From contig JACQXX010000127.1 in assembly GCA_016208495.1 (NCBI GenBank), forward strand, positions 1 to 64,000: a stretch of 64,000 nucleotides of DNA, given 5' to 3'. Origin of the DNA: Acidobacteriota bacterium. Its GTDB lineage: Bacteria; Acidobacteriota; Blastocatellia; Chloracidobacteriales; Chloracidobacteriaceae. Made by a program: the position numbers and the translations under genes. Below, piece after piece: positions 1,207 to 62,955 of this stretch (positions are counted from its first letter, which is position 1; every line of letters starts with the position of its first letter). Under the pieces are notes generated by a model that was not told where the DNA came from, did no database searches, and saw only the letters and a list, made by a program, of their open reading frames with translations.

Positions 1207-1300
1207 TTAGGGTTTAGGATTCAGAGGTTTAAACAAAAGGACATAAAGGGCGAACGGGACATAAAGGACAAAAATTCGAAGACCCGGAACCCGGAACCCT
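1207..1300. repeat. Heptamer-armed palindromic element (copy A)
   Basis: A left arm with TTAGGGTTTAGG and a right arm with CCCGGAACCCGGAACCCTAA flank a core with AAAGGACATAAAGG. The right end provides the stop codon of the molybdopterin subunit gene. The element fills the whole spacer between two genes expected to be cotranscribed. Confidence 0.7.
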
Positions 1301-3509
1301 AATCCCTGGCTTTAAACACTTTCACCGCACAGACCTTGTATTCCGGGATTTTAGAAATTGGATCCTGGGCGGAAATGGTGAGCTGGTTGGCGCTTTGCCG
1401 GCCAGCCCAGTGATAGGGAATAAACACCGTATCAGGCCGAATCGTGGTTACAACGTGGGCTTTGAGTGTGCAATTGCCACGACGTGATTCGACAGTGGTT
1501 AAATCACCATTGGCGATGCCCAGTTTTTCGGCCAGCCGGGGGTGCATTTCAACTCGTGGTTCCGGGTATTGATCAACCAGGGGGCCAATTCGTCGGGTTT
1601 GCGAGCCAGAAAGAAAATGACTGATTACCCGGCCCGTGGTCAGAATGATTGGATATTCGGTATCAACATCTTCGGTCGGCGGTGTGTACCCAGCGACGAC
1701 GAACCGGGCTTTCCCGTCTGGGAAGTAAAACGGCCCGGTACCTTTGGCAATCGGATTCCACGAGCCAGGTTCAAAAAGCCGTGGGGTTCCAGGGTGGTCA
1801 TCGCTCGGACAGGGCCAAAATACCCCGTGCTGACGCTCCACTTTTTCATAGGTAATGCCTGAATAATCCGCCACGCCGCCTTTGGAAGCAATTCTGAGTT
1901 CATCCAGCATTTCCTGTGGGCTGGCAAAGGTAAAGCCTTTTTCCGCTCCCATTTGGCGGGCAATATCCTGGATGATGCGCCAGTCCTGGCGGGCTTCGCC
2001 CGGTGGGTCAATCACCTTGTTGATTTTGATAACCCGGCCTTCAATTTGAGTGACGATCCCTTCATCTTCTTCATGGAGCGAACCAGGGAGCACGATATCA
2101 GCGTGATGCGCCGTTTCATTCAGGAAAAAGTCAATCGCCACATAAAATTCAAGTTTTTCGAGCGCTTTGGTGACAAATGCATTGTCTGGCAGAGAAACCT
2201 TGGGGTTGAAACAAAGTGACAGCAAGCCACGGATTTCACCCTTGTCAATTTTGCGAAAAATTTCATAGGCATCAACGCCAGCCTGGGGAAGGTCATCTGG
2301 TGAAACGTCCCAGACTTTGGCGATATAGGCGCGATGTTCGGGGTTGCTGATATCACGTCCGCCAGGAAGTTGATCGCATTTCTGGCCGTGCTCGCGTCCT
2401 CCCTGGCCATTGCCCTGGCCGGTAATGGTGGCATATCCACAGTTTTCGCGCCCGATTCGGCCTGAAGCCAGCACAATGTTGATGGCACCGAGGACGTTTT
2501 GAACACCGTGGCTGTGGTGCTCGATCCCACGGGCATGCATCAGAAAACTGGTTTTGGCGGTGCCCCACCATTCCGCTGCCTGACGAATTGATTTTTCGGC
2601 AATCCCGGTGACTTTAGCAGTGAATTTAGGCGTCCATTGTTTGACGTGTTCGGCAACGGCTTCGAACCCAACGGTTGAGTTTTGAATGAAATCGTGGTCA
2701 AGCCAGTCATTTTCAATCATTAAATGAAGAATGCCATTAAACAGCGCAATATCCCGACCAGGTTTGATTGGCAGGAACAGGTCGCAAGTTCGGGCAACCG
2801 GCGTGATCCGTGGGTCAACCACGATGATTTTGGCGCCGTGTTCGCGGGCCTGCCAGACGTAGTTGGTCGTGATGGGGGCGCATTCGGCCACGTTGGCACC
2901 ACTGATCCAGACCACATCGGTTTTCAACATATCGGACCACGGATTGGCGGCTCGATCAATCCCAAAAGCTTTTTTATTGCCTGCCCCGGCGCTGACCATA
3001 CAGAGCCGCCCGTTATAATCAATATTGGCGGTTTTGAGCGCGACACGAGCAAATTTTCCCATCAAGTAGGCTTTTTCAGTCGTCAGGCTGGCACCACTGA
3101 GCAGCGCAAAGGCGTCTCGACCGTGAACAGCCTGAATGCGCTTGATTTCGGTTGCCACCCGGTCAATCGCCTCGGCATATGGCATCGGGCTAAACCCCGA
3201 CGGATGTGATGGATCCCGTTTGAGCGCCGTCACTAACCGATCTGGATGTGCTCCCTGCAAATACCGCTTCACGCCCTTGGGGCATAACATCCCACGGTTG
3301 AAGGGAAAGTCTTCCCACGGTTCGAAGCCAATCACCTGATTGTCTTTCACTTTGAGCTGAATCCCACACTGCTGTCCGCAAAAACAACAGTGTGTTTTGA
3401 CCACTGAATCCGGTTCAATGCCGGTTTCCAGGCGATTTCCTGTACTCCGGGCCAGATGTGGACCAAATGATTCGGTAAGTTGTTCGAGCGTAACAGGGAG
3501 TTTAGCCAT
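1299..3509 (-). CDS. Molybdopterin oxidoreductase, assimilatory nitrate reductase (NasA/NarB)-like
   Basis: A 736-residue Mo-bisPGD enzyme, probably reducing nitrate to nitrite. It has an N-terminal [4Fe-4S] motif (Cys41, 44, 48, 76), a probable Mo ligand Cys169 in the [10 protein letters not shown] context, and the [20 protein letters not shown] block typical of assimilatory NasA/NarB and related formate dehydrogenases. The C-terminal molybdopterin-binding domain contains [17 protein letters not shown]. There is no twin-arginine signal, so it is predicted cytoplasmic, unlike NapA. Its company (ferredoxin subunit, cytochrome b-like membrane subunit, NrfHA) suggests a quinol-linked nitrate reductase feeding NrfA. 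Formate dehydrogenase or another oxidoreductase remains possible because substrate cannot be read from these motifs alone. Confidence 0.8.
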
Positions 3510-3518
3510 AAGTCTTCT

Positions 3519-3584
3519 GTAATATCAGTTTGTAGTCAGTAGTCAGTAGCCAGTAGTTCACTAAGTTTATTTGACTGAATCACT
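3519..3584 (-). repeat. GACTACT repeat, degenerate copy of an ATACCA-ended element
   Basis: Carries ATATCAGTTTGTAGTCAG, then repeats of AGTCAGT, then TAGTTCACTAAGTTTATTTG. The same blocks occur at 9418-9531 and 40633-40734 on the other strand and at 27777-27882 on this strand. The outer end is eroded. Confidence 0.6.
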
Positions 3585-3609
3585 AAAACCAGGGCTCAGC
3601 CCTGGTTTT
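3585..3609. terminator. Hairpin over the stop codon of the cytochrome b-like gene
   Basis: Twelve-base perfect arms AAAACCAGGGCT and AGCCCTGGTTTT are separated by one base. The stop codon at 3596-3598 lies inside the stem, so the last residues of the protein are encoded by it. Short A and T tracts flank it on both strands; it may attenuate read-through into the molybdopterin subunit gene. Confidence 0.5.
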
Positions 3610-4640: not shown

Positions 4641-4828
4641 TAGGGTTCAGGGTTCAGGGTTCGGGGTTCAGGGTTCGGGGTTCGGGGTTCGGGGTTCGGG
4701 GTTCGGGGTTCGGGGTTCGGGGTTCGTTCGGGGTTCTTCGAATTGAGTATCTTTTCGTGATCGTTGTTCTTTTGCTTGTTTCCCCGAAACCCAGTTTTCA
4801 AACCCTGAACCCTGAACCCTGAACCCTA
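4641..4828. repeat. Heptamer-armed palindromic element (copy B)
   Basis: Begins TAGGGTTCAGGGTTCAGGG, continues as about ten GGGTTCG heptamers, then a core of roughly 65 bases, and ends with CCCTGAACCCTGAACCCTA. The two ends are inverted copies of one another. The terminal CTA is the complement of the nrfA stop codon. The G-rich strand has many G3-4 tracts with 3-4 base loops and could form a G-quadruplex. Confidence 0.85.
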
Positions 4829-6283
4829 TTTCGTTGCTTGTGCCGTTTGGGTTGTTGGCGGTGTTGGCGGTGTCAGTGCTTTCGGATCGCGGACGGCCAA
4901 CTGTCCTTTGCGCAAGAAATTAATGGATTCGCCCAAAATCCGGGCGGCTTCCTGTGGGGCGTGGAATCCGGTCGAGTTTTCAGCTTCGACAAAATCCAGG
5001 TAGAACTGTCCCCGGCGTTGGAAATCCTGAGCCAGGGCCAGATCGGCATCAGTCTTGCCAGCAGCTTTGGCCGCTTTGATGTCGTTAATGAGATCCATTA
5101 AGGCATCCATCGCCAGGTTTCTGAGTTGATAGGTTCGTTCCTGAATCGTCTCAACCCGAGCTTTTAATTCAGCTTCCGGCCATTTGTGACACGTCTGGCA
5201 GGCATTATTGATATTGAGCAATGGACTGCGGACGTGGTGGTCGCTGATTTTCATGGCGCCGACCCGTTTGTACGGCATATGGCAGTCAGCACAGGAAACA
5301 CCGGATCTGGCGTGAATGCCCTGATTCCACAATTCAAACTCTGGATGCTGGGCTTTCAAGGTCAGAGCGCCGGTATCGGCGTGCGTCCAGTCCTTAAATT
5401 TGGCTTCGTCATAATAGGCGAGAATATTTTCAACCTTGAGACCTTTGGCCCATGGATAGACCAGCCGTTTTTCCGGTCCTTTAAAGTAATACTCAACGTG
5501 GCATTGACCGCAGACAAAGGTTCGCATTTCCTGACGGGTGGCCATTTTGTTCACGTCATAGTTTTGAATTCCTTGTGACGCTTTGTAAGCAGCGATTCCT
5601 TCCATAAACCCTGGACGGGTGACGCGAAGCTGCATTGTTTGCGAATCGTGGCAGTCAATACAGGCAACCGGATGCTTAAATTCCTTCCGGGCTTCCGTGT
5701 AGGGCATCTGGTTCATGATCTCAAAGCCTTTGGTTAAATCTCCTTTGCCCAGCCGTTTGTAAGGAACATACACCGAGGCATGGCATTGAGCGCAGGTACC
5801 TGGTTGTTTCACAACTTGCTGGCGTTCGGTAAAGCTTTGATCATCAAGCATATAGGCGTGACCGCGTTCTTCGCGAAAGTCTTTGGAAAACGCATAACCA
5901 GCCCACATGGCTTTGAGTCGTGGATCTTCTTCGAGTTTTGACTGAGCGACAATCGAGCGCGGGTCAACCTGGGTGGGTGTTTTTGGAATGGCTTCGCTGC
6001 CCCCAAATCGCGTCCGTTCCTGGTCCACCGTCTTTTTATAATCGTCATATTGGAGCGGAAAATTCTTGCCCCAAATGGCTGGATCTTCGGTTTCGTCAGT
6101 GAGTGGAACCACGGTGAAAAACGGGTTTCTGGCTTCCTGCTTCCGCTCAAAGATGTTGACCAGCAGCGCCGTCAGCCCAATCGTGACCAGGGCGGTTACA
6201 ATAACTGTCCCCAGGATGAGCATGCCTCTGTTTTTTGAAAGAAGTGTTTTTGGCGTTTGTGGTGTGTGTGTGTGTTCAGCCAT
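4826..6283 (-). CDS. nrfA: Ammonia-forming cytochrome c nitrite reductase, catalytic subunit NrfA
   Basis: Reduces nitrite to ammonium with six electrons outside the cytoplasmic membrane. The 485-residue protein has an N-terminal membrane anchor or uncleaved signal (about 20-44) and five haem motifs: CAQCH (164-168), CIDCH (208-212), CGQCH (258-262), CADCH (331-335) and CQTCH (362-366). In classical NrfA the active-site haem is bound by CxxCK; here the first motif is CxxCH, the variant known in a subset of NrfA proteins. Length and motif order fit the family. The partner nrfH lies immediately upstream. The ATG has only a weak ribosome binding site because a repeat fills almost the entire spacer. 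Confidence 0.93.
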   Translation of the reverse strand: MAEHTHTPQTPKTLLSKNRGMLILGTVIVTALVTIGLTALLVNIFERKQEARNPFFTVVPLTDETEDPAIWGKNFPLQYDDYKKTVDQERTRFGGSEAIPKTPTQVDPRSIVAQSKLEEDPRLKAMWAGYAFSKDFREERGHAYMLDDQSFTERQQVVKQPGTCAQCHASVYVPYKRLGKGDLTKGFEIMNQMPYTEARKEFKHPVACIDCHDSQTMQLRVTRPGFMEGIAAYKASQGIQNYDVNKMATRQEMRTFVCGQCHVEYYFKGPEKRLVYPWAKGLKVENILAYYDEAKFKDWTHADTGALTLKAQHPEFELWNQGIHARSGVSCADCHMPYKRVGAMKISDHHVRSPLLNINNACQTCHKWPEAELKARVETIQERTYQLRNLAMDALMDLINDIKAAKAAGKTDADLALAQDFQRRGQFYLDFVEAENSTGFHAPQEAARILGESINFLRKGQLAVRDPKALTPPTPPTTQTAQATK

Positions 6284-6291: not shown

Positions 6292-6413
6292 TCAGGGTTC
6301 AGGGTTTGGGGTTCAGGGTTCGGGGTTCAGGGTTCAGGGTTTTTGAATTTTTGTCCTTTTCGTCTCTTTCGTCCTTTATGTCCTTTTTGATTTTGCTTTC
6401 CCGGAACCCGAAG
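6292..6413. repeat. Heptamer-armed palindromic element (copy C)
   Basis: Starts with TCAGGGTTCAGGGTTTGGGG and further heptamers, has a core containing TTGTCCTTTTCGTC and TCCTTTATGTCC, and ends in CCCGGAACCCGAAG directly against the nrfH stop codon. It separates nrfH from nrfA, leaving only eight bases before the nrfA start. Confidence 0.8.
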
Positions 6414-9546: not shown

Positions 9547-10077
9547 ATGACCGACCTTCGCTATCCGGTGGGAAAATTCCCGTTTGAACGCAACGATTAC
9601 TCTGACGCCGACCGGGAGGCTGCGATAGAAGACATTGCCAGCCTGCCGCAAAAGCTCCGCGACGCTGTGGCGGGTTTAACTGATGAGCAGCTTGATACGC
9701 CCTATCGCCCTGACGGCTGGACAATCCGGCAGGTGATCCATCACGTGGCTGATAGTCATGTCAACAGCTACATCCGATTCAAACTCGCGCTCACCGAACA
9801 TGAGCCGACGATCAAGCCTTATGCCGAAGCACTCTGGGCCGAGTTTCCAGATGGGAAAAGCTTCCCGGTGGAAATTTCACTCCAACTGCTCGACGCACTG
9901 CATGCGCGACTGGTCAACCTGCTGAAAACCCGATCCCCCGAAGACTTTGACCGAACCCTGCTGCATCCTGAAATGGGCCCGTTGAACCTTCATAAAATGA
10001 CGGCTTTGTATGGCTGGCACAGCCGCCACCATCTGGCACATATCACTTCGCTCAAAGAACGCCTGGGCTGGCAGTAG
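9547..10077 (+). CDS. DinB/YfiT family putative metal-dependent protein
   Basis: A 176-residue four-helix protein of the YfiT (BstA-like) branch of the DinB superfamily, which contains thiol transferases and metal-dependent hydrolases. The expected metal ligands are visible: a His in IRQVIHHVADSH (65/66) and the HxxxH pair His161/His165 in HSRHHLAHI. The length matches YfiT. GGAG in TTCGGAGACACCTT precedes the ATG. It is monocistronic, closed by a strong hairpin. The thiol or substrate used cannot be deduced. Confidence 0.85.
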   Translation: MTDLRYPVGKFPFERNDYSDADREAAIEDIASLPQKLRDAVAGLTDEQLDTPYRPDGWTIRQVIHHVADSHVNSYIRFKLALTEHEPTIKPYAEALWAEFPDGKSFPVEISLQLLDALHARLVNLLKTRSPEDFDRTLLHPEMGPLNLHKMTALYGWHSRHHLAHITSLKERLGWQ

Positions 10078-10137
10078 GAAGGATGAAGGATGAAATATGA
10101 AGATCTATAGCCCTTCATATTTCATCCTTCATCCTTC
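10078..10137 (+). terminator. Perfect 24-bp hairpin after the DinB gene
   Basis: Arms at 10078-10101 and 10114-10137 are exact inverted copies built from repeats of GAAGGAT/ATCCTTC, with a 12-base loop. It starts directly after the stop codon. It probably ends or stabilises the transcript, and its arms belong to the tandem-repeat hairpin class seen throughout the window. Confidence 0.65.
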
Positions 10138-10213
10138 ATAATTCCAGTCTCCGTCGCACACATTTCAGATTGTCCATTTCATAGAATTCACTACAAGAAG
10201 AGAGGGAAAGCCA

Positions 10214-12661: not shown

Positions 12662-12966
12662 GCTTTCACGTGTCGGTTTTTGGTTTTGCACCGCGAAGCG
12701 TTGCGGTTCGGATAGCCGGTCGGTTGGCCGCTTTGGGCCTACCACCGGACCTAAAGGCCACCTCCTTGTCACTCCCCGCTTCGCCCGCGCCCCGCTGGGG
12801 CGCGGGCGAAGCGGGGAGAAATGGAGAGAACGAACCTTTTCCCGGTGGTAGCTCCCAAAACCTCGCAACCAACCGGCTATCCGAACTGCAGCCTTTCAGG
12901 ATGCTCAATCCAATTGTCAATCTGTCCTTCCCCCTGGAAGGAAATTAAAAACCTACGCGTGAAAGC
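12662..12966. repeat. 305-bp long imperfect palindrome with GC-rich core hairpin
   Basis: Outer ends GCTTTCACGTGTCGGTTTTT (12662-12681) and AAAAACCTACGCGTGAAAGC (12947-12966) are inverted copies with two mismatches. Further inverted blocks carry GTTCGGATAGCCGGT. The centre is a perfect 21-bp hairpin (12773-12793 / 12797-12817) with a 3-base loop. The segment GGCCGCTTTGGGCCTACCAC also occurs, slightly changed, in the element at 18631-19001. Open frames inside it are symmetry artefacts. Confidence 0.8.
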
Positions 12967-13081
12967 CGAGGGCTTGGGGCTGAAGAAAACGGGCTGCAGA
13001 CATTGGGTTAAAGAACTGGTTTTATTTCATCCTTCATCCTTCATCCCTCATCCCTTCGATTGCCCTGAGCCCTGGTTCGGT

Positions 13082-14344
13082 TCACATATTTCGAATTGCC
13101 ACCACCGGGTCCATTTTGGCGGCTCGAACTGCCGGGTACATTCCGGCAATCAGTCCCACCGTGGCCGAAGTTCCAAATCCAGCCAGAATCGCCCAAAGTG
13201 GAACCGCCACCGGAAAGCTGATTACCAGACGAATGATCAAGGCAATACCAAGCCCAACCACAATTCCGATGATGCCGCCAAACGTCGTCAAAATCACCGA
13301 TTCAATCAAAAATTGAGTCAAAATATCTCGTTTGCGAGCGCCAATCGCACGCCGAACGCCAATTTCGGCTGTTCGTTCAGTGACTGAAACCAGCATGATA
13401 TTCATCACGCCGACGCCTCCGACCAGAAGTCCGGCCAGTGCAACCGGCACCACGATCAAGGCCAGCCCGGCTAAAATTTGATTGACGGCATCAAAGACCT
13501 GTTCGGCCCGATTGACGCCGAAATTGTTTGGGGCTTCGGTGGAGACTTTCCGGCGGATGCGAAGGGTTGCGGTGACATGGTCAGTAACTTCGTCAACTTT
13601 GCCAGTCGGGGCCCGAACCACAATCACGACGCCTTCGATATTCGGGTATTGTTTGGCAACCGTTTCAAATGGCGCGTAGACGATTCGTTCGTCGAGTTCG
13701 TCGCTGCCAATCACTCCCTGACCTGCCGCCGAGGCCAGCACACCGATGACCCGATACAGGCTACCGTCAATTTTCACTTCTTCACCTATCGGATCCAGGG
13801 TATCAAACAACTGGCGGGCAATCCCTGAGCCAATCACCACCACCTGTGACCGGTTTCGACGCTCGGTCTCAGTAAAAAAGCGTCCATTTTCAATATTGAC
13901 TGAAACCAGATCCGGGAAATTATCCCACACACCCAACACCAGCGGGTTGATTGCTTCGCGGCCACGGGCAGTCATAGTGGGCTTATCCGCTGTCGGTCCG
14001 TAACTCCCGCGAATTTTCTGTGGTGAAACACCCAGCGGAGAATCCAACGCCACTACGGCCAGAGCATCCTCATAGGTCAAGTCTTTGCGCTGGCGTTCTT
14101 CCGGCGTTGGGGAGCGAAATGAAGGGCCAATTTTTTCTTCTTTGGTGAAATAAATCACATTTGGCGCGCTGCGTTCGCTAATGGCGGCAATTCGAGCCGA
14201 AAGCCCGGTCAACACCGCACCAACCATCACCACGACCGTCACACCAATGATGACGCCCAGCAGTGTCAAGGCTGACCGCAGTTTATTGGCCCGCAACGAT
14301 TCCAGAACCGTAATGAAAATGTCTTTTAGAAGTTGGTGACGCAT
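13082..14344 (-). CDS. MacB/FtsX-type ABC transporter permease
   Basis: A 420-residue inner-membrane permease: one N-terminal helix (about 22-45), a periplasmic MacB-PCD-like domain (about 50-260), then three helices and the FtsX core with ISERSAP and the VTERTAEIGVRRAIGARKRD segment before helix 3. It pairs with the permease gene upstream, which has the same layout. No ATPase gene lies beside them, so one must be supplied from elsewhere. The start codon abuts a 90-bp array of GGGTTCG heptamers and has no Shine-Dalgarno sequence, so translation may depend on coupling or on a leaderless message. Substrate unknown. Confidence 0.85.
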   Translation of the reverse strand: MRHQLLKDIFITVLESLRANKLRSALTLLGVIIGVTVVVMVGAVLTGLSARIAAISERSAPNVIYFTKEEKIGPSFRSPTPEERQRKDLTYEDALAVVALDSPLGVSPQKIRGSYGPTADKPTMTARGREAINPLVLGVWDNFPDLVSVNIENGRFFTETERRNRSQVVVIGSGIARQLFDTLDPIGEEVKIDGSLYRVIGVLASAAGQGVIGSDELDERIVYAPFETVAKQYPNIEGVVIVVRAPTGKVDEVTDHVTATLRIRRKVSTEAPNNFGVNRAEQVFDAVNQILAGLALIVVPVALAGLLVGGVGVMNIMLVSVTERTAEIGVRRAIGARKRDILTQFLIESVILTTFGGIIGIVVGLGIALIIRLVISFPVAVPLWAILAGFGTSATVGLIAGMYPAVRAAKMDPVVAIRNM

Positions 14345-14480
14345 GTTCGGGGTTCGGGGTTCGGGGTTCGGGGTTCGGGGTTCGGGGTTCGGGGTTCGGG
14401 GTTCGGGGTTCGGGGTTCGGGGTTCGGGGTTCGGGGGGGCAGAATTTCGAAGACCCTGAACCCTGAACCCCGAACCCTGA
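14345..14480. repeat. Heptamer array and palindromic element (copy D)
   Basis: About thirteen consecutive GGTTCGG heptamers (14345-14437) are followed by a short core with AATTTCGAAG and by CCCTGAACCCTGAACCCCG. It fills the spacer between two permease genes and is the longest perfect heptamer run in the window. Confidence 0.9.
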
Positions 14481-15778: not shown

Positions 15779-15954
15779 TCAAATGAGCGCACGCTTGAAA
15801 GTTGGGGGCAACAGATTTTTACGCTTGTTGATCGGGGCTCGTGCTATGCTTGGGATTCTGTTTCTACCGCTCTTTCTCGATCAGGTCGAGGGAGTTTCGC
15901 TTATTTCTTCCTTTCGTGGACATCGGCGAATTCTATTCAACTGGAGGTAATTCT

Positions 15955-18576: not shown

Positions 18577-18630
18577 AGAAAATATTAGTGATTAGTGGTT
18601 AGTGGTTGGTGGTTAGTGGTTAGTGGTTAG

Positions 18631-19001
18631 TACAAGTCCCCATAAATGGGGGATGGAATTTTGGTGATTCCGAATTGGCTTTCGCCCGGATGGGCGCCGG
18701 ACAATAGCCGGTGGTTTGCCGCTTTGGGCATACCACCGGAGTGTCGGTCTGGAGTGGTTCGCGCCCGGATGGGCGCTGGAAGCTGGTTCGGGTCCCGGTT
18801 TTCGTGGAATTTTCGGCTTCTGGCTCACGACTCCTGTTCCAGCGCCCATCCGGGCGCAAACCCGTGATGGCGGCTCTGTCCGGTGGCCGCGTGTCCAAAG
18901 CGACACTTGCCACCGGCTATTTTCCACCGCCCATCCGGGCGAAAACCAATGTTTCTGCCAGCGAGTGGTCGAATTTCATCCCCCTTTTATGGGGACTTGT
19001 A
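18631..19001. mobile_element. 371-bp MITE-like palindromic element with 29-30 bp inverted repeats
   Basis: Ends start TACAAGTCCCCATAAATGGG and finish with the inverted copy (18972-19001), two mismatches in 29. GTTAG occurs directly on both sides (18626-18630, 19002-19006), consistent with a 5-bp target duplication but also part of the surrounding GTGGTTA repeat. Inside are four copies of CGCCCGGATGGGCG, two in each orientation, and AATAGCCGGTGG in inverted pairs, so the whole is one large imperfect palindrome. No gene. Confidence 0.75.
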
Positions 19002-19064
19002 GTTAGTTCTTGGTTCCTGGTTCTTCTCCGAAAGTATTGATTTCTAACCACTAACCACTAACCA

Positions 19065-22000
19065 CTAACCACTTTCTTCTTTCTTCTTTCTTCTTTCTTC
19101 ATTCCCAGAGGGTGCGTCGAGCAGTTCGCGGACGCGTGACAACAACTGCGTAATCGAAAAGGGTTTGGGAAGAAAAGCCGTCCCTTCTGTCAGGAGTTGC
19201 TGGACTGAAACCAGACCTTCGGTATATCCCGAGATATAAAGCACCTTGAGGTCAGGCCGAATTGCCCTGATCTGACTGCTTAATTCAACGCCTCCCAGTC
19301 GGGGCATCACGATATCGGCAATCAATAAATGGATCGGCTCCCGGTAGTTTTTGGCCATATCCCTGGCCAGTGCACCGTCCCCAGCTTCAAAAACTTTATA
19401 CCCCAGGTCCGACAAAATATCCCTGGCCATGGTTCTCACGGCAGGCTCGTCTTCAACGAGTAAGATTGTTTCCGTTCCACGAAAAACCTGCGGTGGAAGG
19501 CTGGGCAGGGTTGATCGGCGATTGGTTTCCTGCCAGACCGGGAAAAAGACTTTAAAGACCGTTCCCACCGTGGGATCACTGTAGAAAGTGATGTGCCCGT
19601 GATTTTGTTTGACGATCCCGTAACAGGTTGAAAGTCCAAGCCCGGTGCCTTTTCCTTGCTCTTTGGTTGTGAAAAAGGGCTCAAAGATATGTTCGAAGTT
19701 GTGCGGGGCAATCCCAACTCCATTATCTGTCACTGAAAGCTGGACATAGGGACCCGGTATCAGGCCAGTGGTCTGCCGGTTAAACTCAGGGCCAAGTTCA
19801 ACGTGCTGGGTTTCGATAACCAGAGTGCCACCTTTGGGCATGGCATCACGGGCGTTGACAATCAGATTGAGCAGAATTTGTTCAAACTGGCTGGAATCAA
19901 TTTTTATTTTCGGCAAGTCTGGGGCCAAAATGGTTTTGACTTCGATGTGCTCACCAATCAGCGGGAGGAGCGTCTCCTGCATCTCCGAGATGCGAGTATT
20001 GAGATTCAAAATATGAGGTTCAATTGTTTGTTGCCGGGCAAAGGCCAACAACTGACGGGTCAGAGTGGCCCCCCGCTCGGCAGCCGTGATAATGCTCAGG
20101 AGCGAGGTCGTCGCGGAACTGTCTTCGTGTTGAAACCGCCGTTTGAGCAACTGGGTGTATCCCAAAATAATGGTCAACAAATTATTGAAATCATGGGCAA
20201 TCCCGCCTGCCAGCCGCCCGATGCTCTCCATTTTTTGGGATTGAGTCAGTTGACCTTGCAACAGTTTGTACTCAGTGATGTCCAGGTGAGTGCCAGCGGC
20301 GCGAATTGCCTTCCCTTCAGGTGACCAGTCAATCACCTTGCCGCTGACCAGAAACCATTTCCAGGTACCATTTTTAGCCTTCAGGCGTTGTTCGGCCTGG
20401 AAAAAAGGAATCAGCTTCTTGAGGTGCGCGGCGATGCTTTCTTCAACCCTGGCTCGATCATCCGGGTGGGTCAATCGCAGTTGTTGTTGAAAGGTAGGTT
20501 CAATCTCATCAGTGGAATACCCCAGCATTTCGGCCCACCGCTGGCTATAGACCACTTTATCACTTTCAAGGTTCCAATCCCATAAACCCAGGTTGGCGCC
20601 TTGCAGGACCAGTTCAAGCCGTTGCTCAGTTTTTAACAGCGCACTTTTAGCCCGCTTGCGCTCCGTGACGTCGGTAATGACCAGGACAAACCCAATGATC
20701 TGGTCATATTGATTCCGCTTGTAGTTCCAATCCACCTGCAAGTCAACCGGACGGTCAAACCTGGTTAAGGTCTGAAGTTCCAACGTGAACGGAAGCGGTT
20801 GTTCATCCAGGAACGATTCAAACTGGGCTTTGACTGTGGGAGACCCATAGGGTTGCAACAATAACCAGGCACTGTGGCCGACGACTTCATTGTTGGTATA
20901 GTCAAAAATGTTGTGCGCATAGGCATTGGCAAAAGTTATGAGACCGTCGGGTTGAATTTCCAGAATGCCATAGGGAATAGTTTCAACCAGCAATGCAATT
21001 TGCTTCTGGCTTTCCAGCAGGGCTTGACTGGCCAGCTTGCGTTCGGTGACATCGAGGCAAACCCCTCGCAGTTGGGTGAGTGACCCGGATTGATCAAACA
21101 CCCCAGCCACGATTTCAGCGATAAACATTGACTGACCATCTTTTCTCAGGACCTGGACTTCAGGATAAAAAAGTCGCTTGTTCAAACATAAATCGGTCAG
21201 AAACGCATCGTGGTCTCTCAGGGTTGAGTACCACGAAGCCATGTTGTGTTGTTTGGCTTCATCCGGGGTTTCAAACCCGAACATGGTGGCAAAGATCTGG
21301 TTGCAGGTGATGAGGGTGCCGTCAGGGTGGGAGATATAGTTGCCGGTAAGGTCGGCCTCAAACATCTCGCGATAGCGTTCTTCGCTTTCCAACAGAGCTC
21401 GTTCGGCTCGTTTGCGCTCGGTGATATCACGAACCAGACTAATAATTTCATTGTCCGGAAAGGGCAAAAACCGGGCTTCAAAATGGCGTTCGGGTCCAGG
21501 CTGGTTATGCAGCGAATACTCAACCGTTGCCATTTTGTCGGTTTGATGGACCCATTGCATTGCCTGGAGCAAGGGATCGGCCACATCGGGGGGCAAAAGG
21601 GTGCTGATTCGCTGCCCAAGCAATTCGCTGGTCGTGACATTGTAATCGGCGGAGGAACCCGCAAAGAAATCCACAATTTTCCCGTCAAGGTCAAGCCGAA
21701 ACATCTGGTCGGGGATGGCTTCAAATACCGCCTGGAGTTCAGCCGTCTTTTCTCGAAGTGCCACTTCGGCTCGTTTGCGTTCAGTGGTATCGCGGCTGAT
21801 GACCACCCAATAGACGTGGCCGCGTTTGTTGGCAAAGGGAACGATGCTTGATTCAACCCAAAACTCGGTGCCTTCCTTGCGGTAATTGATGGCCTCGGTC
21901 ACCACGGGTTTTTCATGGAGGCGAATTGCCCGAAACCGGGCAACTTCGGCGGGATCGGTTTTAGGACCATACAAAATGGTTGGCGGTTTCCCATACACTT

Positions 22001-25111: not shown

Positions 25112-25241
25112 GAATTATGAATTATGAATTATGAATTATGAAATCCAGATCTCTATCGCAAAGTTAGGGTTACCAAGCTGTATTTTACTGAAAACACAAT
25201 CTATTCTTTCTTCATAATTCATAATTCATAATTCATAATTT
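25112..25241. repeat. AATTATG-armed palindrome
   Basis: Arms of about 31 bases, four tandem AATTATG units at 25112-25142 and their inverted copy at 25211-25241 with one mismatch, flank a 68-base core. It fills the spacer between the exported unknown protein gene and the transglutaminase gene and could fold into a long cruciform or an mRNA hairpin. Confidence 0.85.
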
Positions 25242-30271: not shown

Positions 30272-30312
30272 CCCCGACCCCTGAACCCTGAACCCTAAAC
30301 CCTGAACCCTAA
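30272..30312. repeat. CCCTGAA heptamers
   Basis: ACCCCTGAACCCTGAACCCT followed by further heptamers in the spacer before the TonB-receptor-like gene; the opposite arm is degenerate. The rest of 30185-30569 shows no gene. Confidence 0.7.
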
Positions 30313-34033: not shown

Positions 34034-34110
34034 CAGGGTTCAGGGTTCGGGGTTCAGGGTTCGAAACTTGATTAGGGTTCGGGGTTCAGGGTTCAGGGTT
34101 CGAAACTTGA
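34034..34110 (+). repeat. GGGTTCA/G heptamers, direct duplicate
   Basis: Two direct copies of a block GGGTTCGGGGTTCAGGGTTC followed by GAAACTTGA, one after the other, directly after the TonB-receptor-like gene. Unlike other members, both blocks point the same way; the inverted arm is at 34249-34282. Confidence 0.75.
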
Positions 34111-34243
34111 GATGAAAAATGGTACTTCTTACAGGTACACATCAAACCAGTCTGTTGATATCTAAAGTGGCCTTGGAAGAAGTCTTATTTGACAAATCCA
34201 AAGTGAAAACCCTGTATTTGGTAGGTTGTTCAATCTCAGAATT

Positions 34244-35473
34244 ATGAAAACCCGGAACCCCGAACCCCGAACCCCGAACCCTACATTTCAACCCCGATTC
34301 CGCTTTGCCCTGAAAGACTTTCATCATCTTCAACCAGGGTTTGTCAGTGATCAGGCAACGATTACCGGGTGGTTGGGTTGGGCACATGCCAACGCGCAAG
34401 AGAAGATTCACCACCGCGAAGAGGCGTTTGATCGGGTCGGATTTGAGGCTCACATCCAACGCTTGTTGCGGCGTTTAAACCATCGAGCCGATGCCGTCGT
34501 CACCAGACAACACGCGCTCAAAGATTTTCTCCATTTTGATCAATCAGCCATGCGAATTTTTGGGAGTGACCAGCCTCCGACCGGAGCGGTTGCCCAGGAT
34601 CGCATGGCTTTTTTTCAGGAAATTGCCACCACGGCCTTTGCCGAGTTTTTCCCCCTCGCTGATTCTCCTCCAACCGATCTGATCCATGTGACCTGCACCG
34701 GGTATTTAGCGCCAAGCTGTGCCCAACAACTGGTTGAAAAACGTCACTGGAGCACCATCACACGGGTCACCCACGCCTACCATATGGGGTGTTATGCAGC
34801 GTTTCCAACGTTGCGGCTCGCAGGTGGGTTTTTGAGCCGTGAACGGTTTGAAGGAAACACCCGTGCCCGCGTGGATGTGGTTCACACCGAACTCTGTACT
34901 CTGCACCTGAATCCGGCCCTCCATTCCATTGAACAGCTTGTCATCCAAAGCCTGTTTGCCGATGGGTTGATCAAGTATTCGGCGGTCAATCTTGAACCTG
35001 AAACTGTGATTGGGTCACCACACCTCACGGTTTTCGCCCAGCACGAACAAATTCTTCCCGATTCAGCCGATGCCATGACCTGGGTTTGCTCAGAGTGGGG
35101 TATGCACATGACGCTGGCGCGAACCGTTCCGGAACTGATTGCCCGTGCCCTGCCTGCATTTTTGGAAGTACTTTCCCAAAAAGCTGGGTTTGACGCCGAA
35201 GGGCTCAGATCAGGTGCTCGCTTTGCTATTCACCCGGGAGGCCCGAAGATTGTGGCGGATATTCAATCCTTACTCAAATTAAGCGAAGTCCAGGTGGCCG
35301 CCAGCAAGCAGGTGCTGGCGGAATGTGGAAACATGTCGTCAGCAACCCTGCCGCATATTTGGGAGCGGCTTTTAAAAGATGACAGAGTCCCATCTGGAAC
35401 AATGATTGTTAGCCTCGCTTTTGGTCCGGGCCTGACCATGTGCGGCACTGTGATGGAAAAACAGGCCGAATGA
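34244..35473 (+). CDS. Type III polyketide synthase (chalcone/stilbene synthase-like)
   Basis: About 409 residues. Condenses an acyl-CoA starter with malonyl-CoA to make alkylpyrone, alkylresorcinol or similar products. The Cys-His-Asn triad is present: Cys183 in HAYHMGCYAAFP, His330 in IHPGGPKI and Asn363 in CGNMSSAT, as in thiolase-fold type III enzymes. The N-terminal residues RNPEPRTPNP are encoded by a CCCCGAA heptamer repeat, so the true start may be later; the ATG at 34244 lacks a clear ribosome site. A small membrane protein and a methyltransferase follow on the same strand, a common arrangement for making methylated lipid phenols or quinone-like molecules. Confidence 0.88.
   Translation: MKTRNPEPRTPNPTFQPRFRFALKDFHHLQPGFVSDQATITGWLGWAHANAQEKIHHREEAFDRVGFEAHIQRLLRRLNHRADAVVTRQHALKDFLHFDQSAMRIFGSDQPPTGAVAQDRMAFFQEIATTAFAEFFPLADSPPTDLIHVTCTGYLAPSCAQQLVEKRHWSTITRVTHAYHMGCYAAFPTLRLAGGFLSRERFEGNTRARVDVVHTELCTLHLNPALHSIEQLVIQSLFADGLIKYSAVNLEPETVIGSPHLTVFAQHEQILPDSADAMTWVCSEWGMHMTLARTVPELIARALPAFLEVLSQKAGFDAEGLRSGARFAIHPGGPKIVADIQSLLKLSEVQVAASKQVLAECGNMSSATLPHIWERLLKDDRVPSGTMIVSLAFGPGLTMCGTVMEKQAE
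34249..34282 (-). repeat. CCCCGAA heptamers inside the polyketide synthase N-terminus
   Basis: AACCCCGAACCCCGAACCCC lies within the predicted coding region and encodes PEPRTPNP. It is the inverted partner of the GGGTTCG blocks at 34034-34110. Confidence 0.75.
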
Positions 35474-45426: not shown

Positions 45427-45442
45427 AATTGATGACCATTTT

Positions 45443-45594
45443 GGGGTTCCGGGTTCCGGGTATGAAAAAAACAAAAAGGACAAAAAGGACGAAAAGGACG
45501 AAAAGGGAACAAGGTGAAGTAAAAGCACTATTGCGTTGAACCTCGCCTGCTTTCGAAAACCCTGAACCCTGAACCCCGAACCCTGAACCCTGTA
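45443..45594. repeat. Heptamer-armed palindromic element (copy I)
   Basis: Left arm TTCCGGGTTCCGGG, core with repeated AAAAAGGAC/GAAAAGGAC, right arm CCCTGAACCCTGAACCCCG and more. The right arm ends directly at the stop codon of the adaptor gene, inside the efflux operon. Confidence 0.8.
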
Positions 45595-46998: not shown

Positions 46999-47218
46999 TT
47001 AGGGACTGTAAAAATACAACTTCCCGTTTTTATCGAAAGTCACCCGGAGAGATCCAATTTCAGAACAGGAAACCACGAAAAAACACGAAAAACACGAAAA
47101 AGAAATCTAAAGACTTCAATGGGTTCTGAGCTTTTGTCAGGGAAAGTGCCACCGAACTCAAAAGAAAATGGCTTCAACCCAAATGAAAATCGGGAAGTTG
47201 TTTTTTAACGCTCCCTTA
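46999..47218. mobile_element. About 220-bp MITE-like element
   Basis: Ends TTAGGGACTGTAAAAATACA followed by ACTTCCCG (left) and the inverted CGGGAAGTTGTTTTTTAACG followed by CTCCCTTA (right) match in about 23 of 28 positions. The interior has CACGAAAAA repeats and no gene. It lies between GTGGTTAGTG repeats and a TCACCTTATCAC repeat in the spacer between tetR and the adaptor gene. Confidence 0.6.
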
Positions 47219-47267
47219 GTCACCTTATCACTCTGTCACCTTGTCACCTTATCACTCTGCCACCTTG

Positions 47268-47962: not shown

Positions 47963-48146
47963 TGGGTTTGGGGTTCAGGGTTCAAGGTTTAGAAAAAAAA
48001 AGGACATCAAGGACCAAAAAGACATAAAGGACATAAATTCAAAAACCCGGAACCCGAAATCCTGACAAGATGACCGACTGACAAGGTGACAAGATGATTT
48101 CTTTCATCCTTCATCCCTCATCCCTTCAGGAACCCGGAACCCGAAG
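47963..48146. repeat. Heptamer element (copy J) and a second CCCGGAA arm
   Basis: GGGTTTGGGGTTCAGGG, a core with AAAGGACATCAAGGACC and GACATAAAGGACATAAAT, then AACCCGGAACCCGAAA. After a GACAAGGTGACAAGATG repeat and a TTCATCCTTCATCC repeat, a second arm AACCCGGAACCCGAAG ends two bases before the stop codon of the Rieske gene. Confidence 0.75.
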
Positions 48147-49222: not shown

Positions 49223-49225
49223 TTC

Positions 49226-49542: not shown

Positions 49543-49644
49543 CAGGGTTCAGGGTTCGGGGTTTGGGGTTCAGGGTTCGGGAAAAGGACAAAAGGGACAT
49601 AAAGGACATAAATTCGAAACCCTGAAACCCGAAACCCGAACCCT
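49543..49644. repeat. Heptamer-armed palindromic element (copy L)
   Basis: TCAGGGTTCAGGGTTCGGGG, a core with AAAGGGACATAAAGGACATA, and CCCTGAAACCCGAAACCCGA ending at the stop codon of the diiron oxygenase gene. It fills the gap to the ferredoxin gene. Confidence 0.85.
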
Positions 49645-50841: not shown

Positions 50842-50884
50842 GGAAATAGCCTGATCAAGCCGGTTTTGGCATCGAATAGATTCG

Positions 50885-51811
50885 TCACCAGACCGGGAGC
50901 GAATCACCAAAAGTTGCCCTTCCTGGAGTAAAACACCCTTTTGCGTCCAGGGTTTCAACCAGATTGGAAGTTGCGGGAACAGCACGAATCAAATTCTGAA
51001 TCAGCCGAAGTTTTCTCAAAGTTGATTCTTCGGCGTCGAGTTCACAATAAAGGCGCGATTTTTGGGATAAGGAAAGGTGGCCTTTTACCTGCTCAACCTG
51101 ACCCAAAACCATGACCGGACCAATTTGAATCATCCGCAGAAACACCATCACGATTTCCGCAATCCGATCAAGAGCTGGCGCGGCAAACATCCGCTCAGAA
51201 CAAAGAACAACCCCGCTCCCATGATGGCGGGCTTCATCTTTTAAAATTCGTTCCAGAACACCACCAAAATCAGGCATGAGACAGGCTTTGGCCAGGTTCC
51301 GGTAATGGGCAATTCCCCAGCCCTCAAGAACAACTTGAATCAAAAATTGCAACACGGCGGGTGATTCGGTTTCAAGGATCTGGGCTAAAAATGTGACAAA
51401 GGGGTTTTCAGAGGGTGATGAAACGGTTGTGAGACCGAGAAACTGAGAAATCAATTGAAAATGGGTGGCTTCCTCAGCCGCAAACTGGCAATACAGCATC
51501 TGGGTTTCCAACGATTCGGCCATCAGGGCCATTTTCGGGGCAAAATACATGCCACATTTTTCAATCCAAAACGCTTCTTCGAGGATGGCTCGACTGCACC
51601 CAGCCAGAATTGCCGATCGTTCTTCAACTGTAGCTTCCTGGAAGATCTGTGACCGATCAAGCTGAAAAAATGAAGCCGGCCAGAGCGGGCCCCGGTCAGT
51701 GGCCTGGTTGGCGAGTCCAACTTCTGGCACCCGTGAATCCAGAAGACGCTGGAGGCGATGGTGTTGATGTAGCTCTGGAAGTTCTAATCGAAGTGGAATC
51801 ATGTCGCCCAT
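50885..51811 (-). CDS. Ferritin-like diiron protein
   Basis: 308 residues with a four-helix ferritin-like core. Candidate ligands are Glu in ILEEAFWIEKCGMYF, EExxH in FAAEEATHFQLI, Glu in LEGWGIAHY and DExxHH in KDEARHHGSG, a complete diiron set. There is no signal peptide. First gene of the minus-strand iron-enzyme group, with GAGAG before the ATG. It could be an oxygenase, an oxidase or an iron-handling partner; substrate unknown. Confidence 0.7.
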   Translation of the reverse strand: MGDMIPLRLELPELHQHHRLQRLLDSRVPEVGLANQATDRGPLWPASFFQLDRSQIFQEATVEERSAILAGCSRAILEEAFWIEKCGMYFAPKMALMAESLETQMLYCQFAAEEATHFQLISQFLGLTTVSSPSENPFVTFLAQILETESPAVLQFLIQVVLEGWGIAHYRNLAKACLMPDFGGVLERILKDEARHHGSGVVLCSERMFAAPALDRIAEIVMVFLRMIQIGPVMVLGQVEQVKGHLSLSQKSRLYCELDAEESTLRKLRLIQNLIRAVPATSNLVETLDAKGCFTPGRATFGDSLPVW

Positions 51812-53119: not shown

Positions 53120-54595
53120 TCAGTATTTCGGAACACTCGGATCAACATCAGTTGACCAGGCGGTGATGCCGCCTTTGAGGTTGATCAACCGGCCAGGAAA
53201 GCCCGCTTCTTTGAGTTGAGCAATTGCTTTTGCGCTCCGACCACCCATTTTGCAATGCACCACGGTTGTCAGTGTCGGGTCAATTTCAGATTGACGACCG
53301 ACGACCTGCCCAAGCGGGATCAGTTTGGTATAAGGTAAGCGTGCGATTTCATATTCATAAGATTCACGCACGTCAATAATTTGCAGGTTCTCTCCGGCAT
53401 CAATCCGCTGTTTTAATTCCACGGCTGTGATTTCAGCCAGTTCATCTTTTGGTGAACTGCCAGGAGTTGCTGGAGGAGGCTTTAATCCGCAGAATTCCTC
53501 ATAGTCAATCAAGGCATTGATCGTGCGGTTTGGACCGCAAATCGGGCAATTTGGGTCTTTGCGCAGTTTCAATTCCTTAAAACGCATCCGCCACGCGTCA
53601 AAATGAATCAGCCGATTGATCAGGGTATCTTCAGCCCCAAGAATAATTTTGATCACTTCAGCCGCCTGAATCGAGCCAACAATCCCTGGTAAAACCCCCA
53701 AAACGCCGCCTTCGGCACAAGATGGAACCAATCCGGGCGGAGGAGGTTCAGGATAAAGACACCGGTAGCAGGCGCCTTTTTCGGCCCAAAACACCGTGGC
53801 CTGCCCCTCAAACCGGAAGATTGAGCCATACACATTTGGCTTGCCCAACAATACACAGGCATCGTTGACCAGATAGCGGGTCGGAAAATTGTCAGTTCCA
53901 TCCACAATCACATCATAATCCTGGAACAATTCCAGGGCATTCTGGCTGGTCAGGCGTGTTTCGTAGGGAATCACTTCAATATGTGGGTTGATGTCCAGCA
54001 ATCGGTCGCGGGCTGAGGCAATTTTGGGGCGGCCAACATCTTTCGTTCCGTGGATAACCTGCCGTTGCAAATTTGAGGCATCAACCACATCAAAATCAAC
54101 AATTCCCAGGTGACCCACGCCGGCTGCGGCCAGATACAAGCCCAGTGGAGCGCCTAGACCACCGGTCCCAATCATCAGAACCCGGGCGGCTTTCAACTTT
54201 TTTTGACCTTCAATCCCAACTTCAGGAAGGATCAAATGCCGGCTATATCGGGCCAGTTCAGCATTTGAAAGCTCGACAGCACTGCTTTGGCAGGTTTCTG
54301 TAACACATTCCTCAACCTCCACACCTCCGGCAATTGCGGGAACGATCATGACGGTATCACCATCCTTGATTGGGGTTTCCAATCCTGATGAATGGCGAAT
54401 ATCCGTATCATTCACATACACATTCACAAAGCTCCGCAGTTTGGCAGCGTCACTGTACAGATGTTTGCGAAGATCGCCGTGGGTAGTGGTGAGAAAGGTT
54501 AAGGCATCCGCCACCGTCGTGGCATCGCATGAAAACTCGGTGTTCCCGTTGGCAAACTGCCTGAGCGCGGTTGGAATGAAGATTGTCACTGACAT
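53120..54595 (-). CDS. Fusion of ubiquitin-like sulfur carrier, E1 (MoeB/ThiF) and rhodanese
   Basis: 491 residues in three parts. Residues 1-91 are a MoaD/ThiS/CysO-like ubiquitin fold ending in the characteristic Gly90-Gly91 (PAIAGG). Residues about 112-350 are an adenylating E1 domain with the nucleotide loop GTGGLGAP, CYRC and CPIC zinc pairs and the conserved Cys293 in PSCAEGGVLG. Residues about 390-485 are a rhodanese with active Cys448 in HCKMGGRS. Carrier, activator and sulfur donor are thus on one chain. The di-glycine is internal, so it must be released, probably by the JAMM peptidase encoded next, before thiocarboxylation. CAGGAG precedes the ATG. Role: protein-thiocarboxylate route to cysteine. 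Confidence 0.9.
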   Translation of the reverse strand: MSVTIFIPTALRQFANGNTEFSCDATTVADALTFLTTTHGDLRKHLYSDAAKLRSFVNVYVNDTDIRHSSGLETPIKDGDTVMIVPAIAGGVEVEECVTETCQSSAVELSNAELARYSRHLILPEVGIEGQKKLKAARVLMIGTGGLGAPLGLYLAAAGVGHLGIVDFDVVDASNLQRQVIHGTKDVGRPKIASARDRLLDINPHIEVIPYETRLTSQNALELFQDYDVIVDGTDNFPTRYLVNDACVLLGKPNVYGSIFRFEGQATVFWAEKGACYRCLYPEPPPPGLVPSCAEGGVLGVLPGIVGSIQAAEVIKIILGAEDTLINRLIHFDAWRMRFKELKLRKDPNCPICGPNRTINALIDYEEFCGLKPPPATPGSSPKDELAEITAVELKQRIDAGENLQIIDVRESYEYEIARLPYTKLIPLGQVVGRQSEIDPTLTTVVHCKMGGRSAKAIAQLKEAGFPGRLINLKGGITAWSTDVDPSVPKY

Positions 54596-60238: not shown

Positions 60239-60259
60239 TCAATTTTTTTCGACAACAGG

Positions 60260-60369
60260 TCACATGTCGGGGTTATCGTGGTCACATGTCGGGGTTATCG
60301 TGGTCACATGTCGGGGTTATCGTGGTCACATGTCGGGGTTATCGTGGTCACATGTCGGGGTTATCGTGG
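60260..60369 (+). repeat. Five perfect 22-bp tandem repeats (iteron-like)
   Basis: The unit TCACATGTCGGGGTTATCGT plus GG is repeated five times without change. A sixth, degenerate unit precedes it in the same register, two repeat lengths from the dispersed copy at 60214. There are no spacers, so this is not CRISPR. Identical head-to-tail units of this size are typical of initiator-protein binding sites; the primase-like gene begins 231 bases downstream. Confidence 0.9.
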
Positions 60370-61617: not shown

Positions 61618-62381
61618 TGCGTCCCAGCGGTGCATTTTGCCTTTTCGCCAAAAACCGAAAATTGCTGGTTGGGCTTGAACCTGATGTCTTGAATCCAGAA
61701 TCAGATGTCAATTTTTTAGACAGTTCTTGTCATTTCCCTGGCAGGTCACTGTGGGAAGTGACAGGGAGGAATCAGAACAAAGCAAGTTCCCAGACTTTTT
61801 TTCCTATCAGTTCCAGTGAACTGGAATCGTGTATGTTTTCTGCTTTGATCTGATAGATAACTATATTATTTTCTGATATTTATTCATTATTTTAGAGTCA
61901 TTGTTTTCTACTCTAAGTATTTCAAATGTTGGGTTCAGTCAGTCCCTGATTCCAAAAAAATCAACTTAATTTTTCCAGTTGGTCAAAGTGGCACGATTTT
62001 TGTTAAATCGTTGCTGAACACTTTTTCATCTTTCCAAAATCAAAGACACAGGCTGTATCGCTGCGGTTCCTGTCTGAAATTCGATGAAATTTTTTCAGTT
62101 GTGTTTGATGGGAAGCCTCAATAAAAGCTGGGAATTTCTTTTTCCAGTCACCCCTCAAAATCCAGCACATTGCCCCTTGCTGGAAATCCTTTCGTGCTCT
62201 GGGGGATTTCAGTTCAGACTCGTCAAATTTGAATTTTATCGGAAAAAATTTCAATCATTTACATGGTATTAGAGTCTTACTCTGCGCTGATTTCCAGGGT
62301 TGGGTTTTCTTGCGGAAATACTTTTGTTGGTGGATTCCACCAACATTAACTACATACTAACTTCAGAGGAGAAAAGAGTTT
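61618..62381. other. AT-rich spacer without a recognised gene
   Basis: 764 bases. Short frames occur on both strands but none has a ribosome site plus a recognisable protein. A stem around CCCTGGCAGGTCACTGTGGG is the only local structure noted. Confidence 0.5.
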
Positions 62382-62789
62382 ATGGGAAAAATGGATGACG
62401 CATGCCGCGATGTGGTAACAAAAGTTGATGGGGCAGTGGCCTGTGGTGTGGTTGACCTTGAAACCGGAATGTTACTTGGGATTTACAACATTGCCCAGTA
62501 TACACAAACCCTCAATGAGATTGTGGCTGCGGCAACAATGGATTTGTTTCGAGGGGCAAACATCGGTCGGGTTGAGCAGCTTGTTCGAGCGCACCGTGGC
62601 CAGCCAGAGAATGGGGAACACTATTTTCAGGAAATTCACGTTACCTCCAACCACAACTATCACTTTGCCAAAACGTTAAAAGGTGGCCGGGCGGTGGTTA
62701 TGTTGGTTACAAAGAAAACAACCAACATTGGAATGGGTTGGGCTATGCTCAAATCAGTATTACCTACCCTTGAGGTTTTGGTACCATAA
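62382..62789 (+). CDS. Roadblock/LC7-like small protein
   Basis: 135 residues with the alpha/beta pattern of the roadblock/longin fold: an initial helix (DDACRDVVTKVDGAVACGVV), a GMLLGIY strand, a long helix and C-terminal strands VVMLVTKKT. Such proteins partner small GTPases or signalling kinases. CAGAGGAGAAAAG precedes the ATG. The neighbour downstream is a kinase-like protein. Family call is by pattern only. Confidence 0.6.
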   Translation: MGKMDDACRDVVTKVDGAVACGVVDLETGMLLGIYNIAQYTQTLNEIVAAATMDLFRGANIGRVEQLVRAHRGQPENGEHYFQEIHVTSNHNYHFAKTLKGGRAVVMLVTKKTTNIGMGWAMLKSVLPTLEVLVP

Positions 62790-62842
62790 ATTGGAATTGA
62801 TTCAGGTTCTTTTTAGGGAGTCGGATGGAAATATCATACCAC

Positions 62843-62955
62843 CAGGGTTCAGGGTTCAGGGTTCAGGGCCAGATACTCCACGTTGCGTGGTACCCGCCAG
62901 TTCCCCAGTCTTCATCTTGAGTGGGATCAGTCAACTCATCGCCGAAACCCTGAAT
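62843..62955. repeat. Heptamer element (copy M, degenerate)
   Basis: AGGGTTCAGGGTTCAGGGTT at 62843-62868 and a weak inverted arm GAAACCCTGAAT at 62944-62955, in the spacer between the roadblock-like and kinase-like genes. Confidence 0.6.

Follow-up and report, generated by a model that had tools for sequence, protein, structure and literature searches.

The recurring elements in the spacers of a 64,000-nucleotide stretch of DNA from an Acidobacteriota bacterium of the Chloracidobacteriaceae are spacer-bounding inverted repeats, and their arms are tandem arrays of heptamers. The stretch (the window) is part of contig C127 (JACQXX010000127.1, positions 1 to 64,000) of a draft genome of 8.38 Mb in 177 contigs (GCA_016208495.1; G000, hereafter the own genome). 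A preliminary description of the window had defined the elements by GGGTTCA or GGGTTCG arms around a GGAC core. This definition is too narrow. A dispersed GGAC-core subfamily does exist, but GGGTTC is one of several heptamers that share the layout, unrelated cores occur in it as well, and the GGAC core is not its defining part. The own genome was compared with G001, another genus of the same family, and in these two genomes the heptamer words are genome-specific.

Period 7 dominates the exact tandem arrays (at least three copies, period 2–15). In the own sample (1.104 Mb, the window and 60 stretches), 217 of 265 arrays have this period, as do 92 of 108 in a first G001 sample (355 kb, also used for GGGTTC arm order, gene context, target duplications and core orientation), compared with 8 of 28 in a control set of 80 named loci from many phyla (744 kb). 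A sequence-blind scan for period-7 arrays of at least 17 nucleotides (nt) found 311 in the own sample and 250 in a larger G001 sample (1.012 Mb, also used for synteny, edge distances, cores, folding and divergent-spacer counts). Inverted neighbours of the same heptamer at most 250 bp apart numbered 43 in the own genome and 66 in G001, whereas shuffling of the units gave 10.5 in each case (maximum 19); arrays farther apart, such as those at 18585-19073, fall outside these counts. Direct neighbours numbered 16 and 8, and the control loci held no inverted pair among 19 period-7 arrays. The first arm contains more G than C in 43/43 own and 64/66 G001 inverted pairs. Read along either strand, the layout opens with the G-rich array and closes with the C-rich one. 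The pairs share some two dozen heptamer words (24) and are therefore not all independent. Own families include AGTGGTT, AGCGAGT, AGTAGTC, and AATTATG, and those of G001 include AATTGAG and ACTGAGG. Two tandem copies of ACTGAGG occur 1,533 times in G001 and never in the own genome, and two of AGTGGTT occur 776 times in the own genome and never in G001. The presence of stop codons within the sense heptamer was considered and dropped as a shared property: such codons occur in 12 of 17 non-GGGTY families, against a mean of 10.5 after letter shuffling (P 0.28).

The inverted pairs lie close to genes. Genes were called with a simple script, for which stops are reliable and starts approximate. Stop-side edges were at most 15 bp from the stop codon in 21 of 40 cases in the own genome and 53 of 72 in G001, against 0.057 for random insertion, and edges at most 25 bp from a start were found in 16/42 (random 0.083) and 30/44 (random 0.091), respectively. 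This closeness is alike for GGGTTC and other heptamers. When arrays are read outward from a gene edge no more than 40 bp away, with single arrays included and equal-G/C arrays left out, the G-rich strand prevails by 158 to 6 in the own genome and 130 to 12 in G001. Divergent spacers contained 2/74 paired vs 19/177 single arrays in the own genome (Fisher p 0.044), and 1/109 vs 7/79 in G001 (Fisher p 0.010). They constitute 16% and 14% of all spacers and received 1 of 41 and none of 58 placed inverted pairs. Own-sample GGGTTC arrays taken together showed no divergent depletion (17/104 vs 72/446 spacers). The arrays of G001 extend into gene ends, with stop distances down to −22. The inverted doublets are predicted to fold into a hairpin, and median predicted energies per base were −0.35 vs −0.25 kcal/mol for pair-bearing and array-free spacers in the own genome (23 vs 135 spacers, the array-free ones being shorter) and −0.37 vs −0.29 kcal/mol in G001 (30 vs 122). 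On gene context, a terminator reading was rejected: own GGGTTC arrays (73 tandem, 17 divergent, 14 convergent) showed no convergent enrichment against the spacers (305/72/69).

The GGGTTC family is genome-wide, as had been supposed from the window. GGGTTCRGGGTTCR has 57 matches in the window with at most one mismatch, whereas 100 shuffles give an expectation of 0.17. It has 1392 + 1196 = 2,588 exact matches in the own genome, against 35 + 38 = 73 for the reversed pattern. Arrays were defined as at least two units of GGGT(T/C)(C/T), and pairs as opposite neighbouring arms at most 250 bp apart. By these definitions, the own sample holds 143 GGGTTC(A/G/C) array loci, 40 paired and 103 single. Only 40 stretches were picked independently of earlier matches, the others partly around listed matches; these 40 gave 88 array loci in 684 kb, which extrapolates to about 1,080 per genome if evenly spread. 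Opposite neighbours followed the order G-arm to C-arm in 42 cases and the reverse in none, and the first G001 sample gave 20 and none. Arm length varies in whole heptamers, from 2 to 21 units in the 40 paired elements, which agrees with what had been noted in the window. Among placed arrays, 104 of 126 lie in spacers; 17 of the 143 were not placed. Often 9-nt repeats around AAAGGACAT make up the middle and lead into TTCGAAAACCC, and several G001 copies have ATTGACAATGGACA repeats with the same TTCGAAAACCC border. A 14-mer match of any kind was found in 27 of 162 genomes of the class, own genome included, with G001 (1,321), G021 (199), G029 (45), and G044 (41) next after the own genome. Both G021 and G029 show a G-arm, an unrelated middle, and a C-arm. 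As the layout is thus present in four independent genomes (G000, G001, G021, and G029), the artefact of a single assembly, which had been a concern, is unlikely.

The middles are of two kinds. Related middles, in both orientations, were found for 15 of 21 GGGTTC, 4 of 5 AGTGGTT, and 3 of 3 AGTAGTC pairs of the own genome and for 10 of 18 GGGTTC pairs of G001. They were found for none of 21 AATTGAG pairs, none of 4 AGCGAGT pairs, and 4 of 20 ACTGAGG pairs (two neighbour pairs, each on one contig); seven of the 109 pairs, with short middles, were left out of this comparison. When the ACTGAGG cores were searched against the whole samples, one had 32 further matches, two had one, and 17 of 20 had none. 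This suggests that part of the set consists of dispersed elements and part of mirrored arrays around unrelated sequences. Where the core could be oriented in tandem spacers of the own genome, 22 were antisense and 8 sense (80 loci lacked a scorable core and 24 were at edges); in G001, three were sense and one antisense.

In the window, the following elements were located.

1207..1300, + strand: GGGTTC palindrome with GGAC core, filling the gap that separates an Fe-S subunit gene (558-1199, −) from a molybdopterin oxidoreductase gene (1299-3509, −).

4641..4828: GGGTTC palindrome of 12 G-rich and 5 C-rich units with a diverged core; it reaches from the stop of nrfA to a point some 8 bp ahead of the following start.

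6292..6413, − strand: GGGTTC palindrome with GGAC core between nrfH and nrfA, from just past the nrfH stop to about 8 bp before nrfA.

10078..10139: GAAGGAT/ATCCTTC heptamer palindrome directly past the stop of 9547-10077, outside the earlier list.

14345..14480: GGGTTCG palindrome of 12 G-rich and 4 C-rich units with a 16-nt middle, filling the spacer between two MacB/FtsX permease genes.

18585..19073: inverted pair of TTAGTGG and CTAACCA with a long middle, framing a convergent spacer; TTAGTGG lies about 8 bp past the stop of 15841-18576 (+), and CTAACCA lies across the stop of 19065-22862 (−).

25112..25240: GAATTAT/ATAATTC-type heptamer palindrome, outside the earlier list; a start codon lies about 3 bp away and a stop codon about 5 bp away.

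30272..30312: single C-rich array of the GGGTTC family, no G-rich partner detected.

34034..34282: GGGTTC palindrome with a duplicated 39-bp left arm and a different core, past the stop of a TonB-dependent receptor-like gene.

45443..45594, + strand: GGGTTC palindrome with GGAC core between an HlyD-type gene (45595-46893) and an RND reading frame, whose called start at 45528 extends into the element.

47963..48146, + strand: GGGTTC palindrome with GGAC core at 47963-48058; 8-mer repeats follow, and another C-rich array lies at 48130-48142.

49543..49644, + strand: GGGTTC palindrome with GGAC core, immediately next to the stop of 49645-50985 (−).

62813..62955: GGGTTC arms within part of a recurring repeat resembling a miniature inverted-repeat transposable element (MITE), with its AGGGAGTCGG... 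end; the core is unrelated to GGAC, and the other repeat end was not seen here.

The preliminary description had counted ten of these as copies of one design. The heptamers are present at all ten places and nine are armed on both sides, 30272-30312 being one-armed; the second arm is degenerate or a single unit in several (left in 1207-1300, right in 6292-6413 and 62843-62955). The common core held less well: by inspection, the AAAGGACATAAAGG-like (GGAC) core is clear in five (1207, 6292, 45443, 47963, and 49543). Of the other five, 4641 has a diverged version, and 14345, 30272, 34034, and 62843 lack the core or have a different one. In G001, the spacer orthologous to 1207..1300 has ACTGAGG arms in place of GGGTTC, that orthologous to 6292..6413 has an AGGACTG array, and that orthologous to 4641..4828 is without an array. 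In 74 named loci that contain both nrfH and nrfA, the estimated length of the spacer between them is −46 to 199 bp (median 28.5); in the own genome, the palindrome fills it. A GTTCCGCCTTGAGGCGG-like palindrome family also occurs in like spacers of relatives, before a psrA-like gene in G001 (L170) and in an nrfH-nrfA spacer (L030). Rfam at its gathering score gave no matches in the window.

Other features of the window and the samples were recorded as well. The nearest named relatives of the window NrfA include a Blastocatellia metagenome-assembled genome (79% identity), and the window has OMP_b-brl_4 and ADOP matches, which are consistent with Acidobacteriota. The RND reading frame (40792-45528, 1578 aa) appears to be a fusion: residues 40-1046 match an RND efflux permease, and residues 1170-1574 match a TolC-type outer membrane protein. 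A MoeB-like adenylyltransferase (53120-54595) has an N-terminal match to a ubiquitin-like small modifier and a C-terminal rhodanese match. A 22-bp unit, GGTCACATGTCGGGGTTATCGT, is present in five perfect copies at 60258-60369. Period 8 is the second commonest tandem period of the own sample (29/265 arrays); arrays of 8-nt units (CCTTGTCA / TGACAAGG) lie at 479-560 and 47214-47279 of the window and recur in spacers and within some palindromes. The MITE-like repeat, with ends AGGGACCCAGAAG... and AGGGAGTCGGATGG..., TNA-like flanking triplets (by eye), and GGGTTCA arms inside, was seen at L015 (about 5770-5960), L024 (about 12940-13130), L019, L022, L129, L131, L133, L147, and 62813-62955 of the window; at L024 it is nested in an AGTGGTT palindrome.

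The account we prefer, to which we give about an even chance, is that the arms grew by slippage on hairpins in the spacers, and that these hairpins are retained or tolerated at the 3′ ends of genes, where they would act like repetitive extragenic palindromic (REP) sequences and bacterial interspersed mosaic elements (BIME). The arms would lengthen and shorten by replication slippage in steps of 7 nt, each largely by itself, and some subfamilies (the GGAC core, AGTAGTC, AGTGGTT, and the arms in the MITE-like repeat) would also have been copied to new places. Less certainly, an mRNA stem right past the stop might alter 3′-end stability, read-through, or translation of the next gene in a REP/BIME-like manner, and the elements may persist partly because divergent, promoter-only spacers tolerate them poorly. 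Perhaps, then, the hairpins have a role at gene ends. Several results weigh against this account. In 19 of 40 GGGTTC pairs the two arms have the same majority seventh base, whereas shuffling gave 13.8 (P 0.051), so the stems are kept perfect at most weakly; this suggests that each arm expands largely independently. Moreover, 22 of 126 placed GGGTTC arrays lie inside called open reading frames, and neighbours with another heptamer match inverted ones in frequency in the own genome (44 vs 43); G001 has 16 of the former.

The same applies to the comparison of syntenic spacers, which is a small, non-random set of eight between adjacent orthologous genes in both samples (two of ten candidate gene pairs, at 24-28% identity, were excluded). 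Arrays were present in seven of the eight in the own genome and in five in G001, with both occupied in five, and the heptamer differed in four of these five. GGGTTC arrays occurred in five own spacers, and GGGTTC was also present in G001 at one of the five. A strict mirrored pair was found in both genomes in only one of the eight (L020, TTAGTGG vs AATTGAG); by eye, with degenerate arms accepted, three are mirrored, including the psr spacer (GGGTTCC vs ACTGAGG) and L024. The background occupancy by period-7 arrays is already high, at 189/449 own and 129/389 G001 spacers. It could be imagined that a fixed slot (stop, G-rich array, any middle, mirror array, next gene) is selected or generated regardless of sequence, that words are swapped wholesale between genera as the mirrored layout persists at gene ends, and that some process writes mirror arrays bordering unrelated sequences. 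This reading is unlikely, and the coincidence of strict mirrored pairs in only one of eight spacers lowers its odds.

Among the alternatives, a non-autonomous transposon of the MITE or REPIN type, with the arms as terminal inverted repeats that were moved by a transposase in trans and later lengthened by slippage, is possible though doubtful. In its favor are the occurrence of related cores in either orientation, the nine matches to Y1_Tnp in the own genome, the patchy distribution in the class, and presence or absence at orthologous spacers. However, target-site duplications gave no signal (the longest flank match averaged 2.84 and 2.47, against 2.84 and 2.90 after shuffling), and a related core is lacking in all AATTGAG and AGCGAGT pairs and in 16 of 20 ACTGAGG pairs. 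Nor did proximity to RAYT genes support a RAYT/REPIN origin: a GGGTTC arm lay within 500 bp at one of seven own and none of five G001 RAYT loci examined (neighbourhoods of 7/9 own and 5/11 G001 Y1_Tnp matches, one cut by a contig end). Instead, the RAYT-like Y1_Tnp genes at L119 and L202 are flanked by CTGCTTCGCAGG / CCGCGAAGCGG-like palindromes, which are likely a separate REP system; L201 has a further, different repeat. The set is not simply one transposon. A purely mutational origin, in which slippage and hairpin template switching act in any unconstrained spacer, genes limit growth, and the product is functionless, is likewise unlikely. The dominance of period 7 across unrelated sequences, the G001 arrays that run into gene ends, and the unique cores fit such an origin, and slippage aided by the size of the polymerase-bound segment is mentioned by Rehm et al. 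(PMC4692102). By itself, it leaves unexplained the G-rich-first order (107/109 pairs) and the lower frequency of paired than single arrays in divergent spacers.

A translational bridge is an improbable explanation. The stem would loop out the spacer and bring the stop beside the ribosome-binding site of the next gene. Both ends lie within 15 bp of genes in 6 of 26 own and 9 of 18 G001 GGGTTC pairs, vs 0.003-0.004 for random insertion, and AAGGA or GAGG was seen by eye between the right arm and the start in several spacers. Yet 14 G001 pairs lie between convergent genes, with no start following, and the predicted stop-to-start path shows no clear shortening relative to spacers free of arrays (medians 17 vs 15 and 12.5 vs 15), which counts against the hairpin account as well. 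The G-rich strand had been noted as able to form G-quadruplexes. A reading of the elements as G-quadruplexes that act on DNA or RNA is highly improbable, and the capacity to form them is not the trait that the families share. At least four GGG units are present in 96 of 194 GGGTTC arms, and GGGAATC-type oligonucleotides form G-quadruplexes in vitro according to Rehm et al. (PMC4692102). The other 98 arms have fewer than four, and AATTGAG, AGTGGTT, AGCGAGT, and AATTATG share layout and position without GGG tracts. The positional bias is equal in families with and without such tracts, a result that had been named as refuting the G-quadruplex reading.

The preliminary description knew of no similar named bacterial repeat; one is in print. 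In Rehm et al. 2015 (PMC4692102), GGGAATC and GGGGA(C/T)T heptamers of 2–26 units are described from Xanthomonas and Nostoc. The Xanthomonas GGGAATC arrays occupy 186 + 183 loci, with 70 + 75 convergent inverted pairs. They lie on the sense strand past stops and on the antisense strand before starts, with few between divergent ORFs; they are generally unassociated with mobile elements, 83% are kept in place between Xcc and Xac, and their function is given as unknown (PMC4692102). The own arrays are tandem GGG-containing heptamers of at least two units, genome-wide and mostly intergenic, and thus resemble this type. Convergent inverted pairs (here 42:0 and 20:0) and the G-rich strand on the coding strand near stops and the non-coding strand near starts (here 158:6 and 130:12) are also shared with those repeats. 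A preference for four units is a further trait of that type; at least four are present in 96 of 194 GGGTTC arms here. In contrast to the Xanthomonas arrays, the own arrays belong to another phylum and have about 1,080 extrapolated loci (186 and 183 there); the layout is used by several unrelated heptamers, some of them without GGG; a dispersed GGAC-core subfamily exists; and orthologous spacers mostly differ in heptamer, although the comparison is with a different genus and Xcc and Xac are closer relatives.

Tandem heptanucleotides of cyanobacteria are called STRR. Those of Calothrix are treated in PMC4692102. TAACTGA heptamers occur in Beggiatoaceae, cyanobacteria, and Bacteroidetes (MacGregor 2015, PMC4679880); they resemble the present arrays in being intergenic, near starts, and different in length by 7-nt steps between close strains. 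Unlike the present arrays, they are arranged as direct repeats and lack paired arms; the main genome studied there has a single inverted set.

REPs of E. coli lie close to stop codons, and the study of REPINs used for comparison is reportedly by Bertels and Rainey. In PMC3116915, REP, BIME, and REPIN sequences with RAYT genes are extragenic inverted doublets with predicted hairpins, as are the present elements. By contrast, the latter have arms of heptamer arrays instead of a fixed 16-mer, are not beside RAYT genes, and have many unique cores. A literature search found no title or abstract opening on such repeats in Blastocatellia or Acidobacteria, with subscription papers mostly outside its scope. 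Compared with the Xanthomonas repeats, the present elements extend the pattern to a new phylum and to a higher copy number. Here one layout serves several heptamers, some of them free of GGG, the heptamers differ between orthologous spacers, and there are unique middles.

Why heptamers are favored as a tandem unit in some bacterial genomes and whether the arrays act are open questions in the field, with which Rehm et al. close (PMC4692102). Two related genomes with the same mirrored layout and different heptamers allow the structure to be considered apart from the sequence. Selection on the hairpin and a mutational origin thereby become testable against each other, and the structure itself merits a test for a role.

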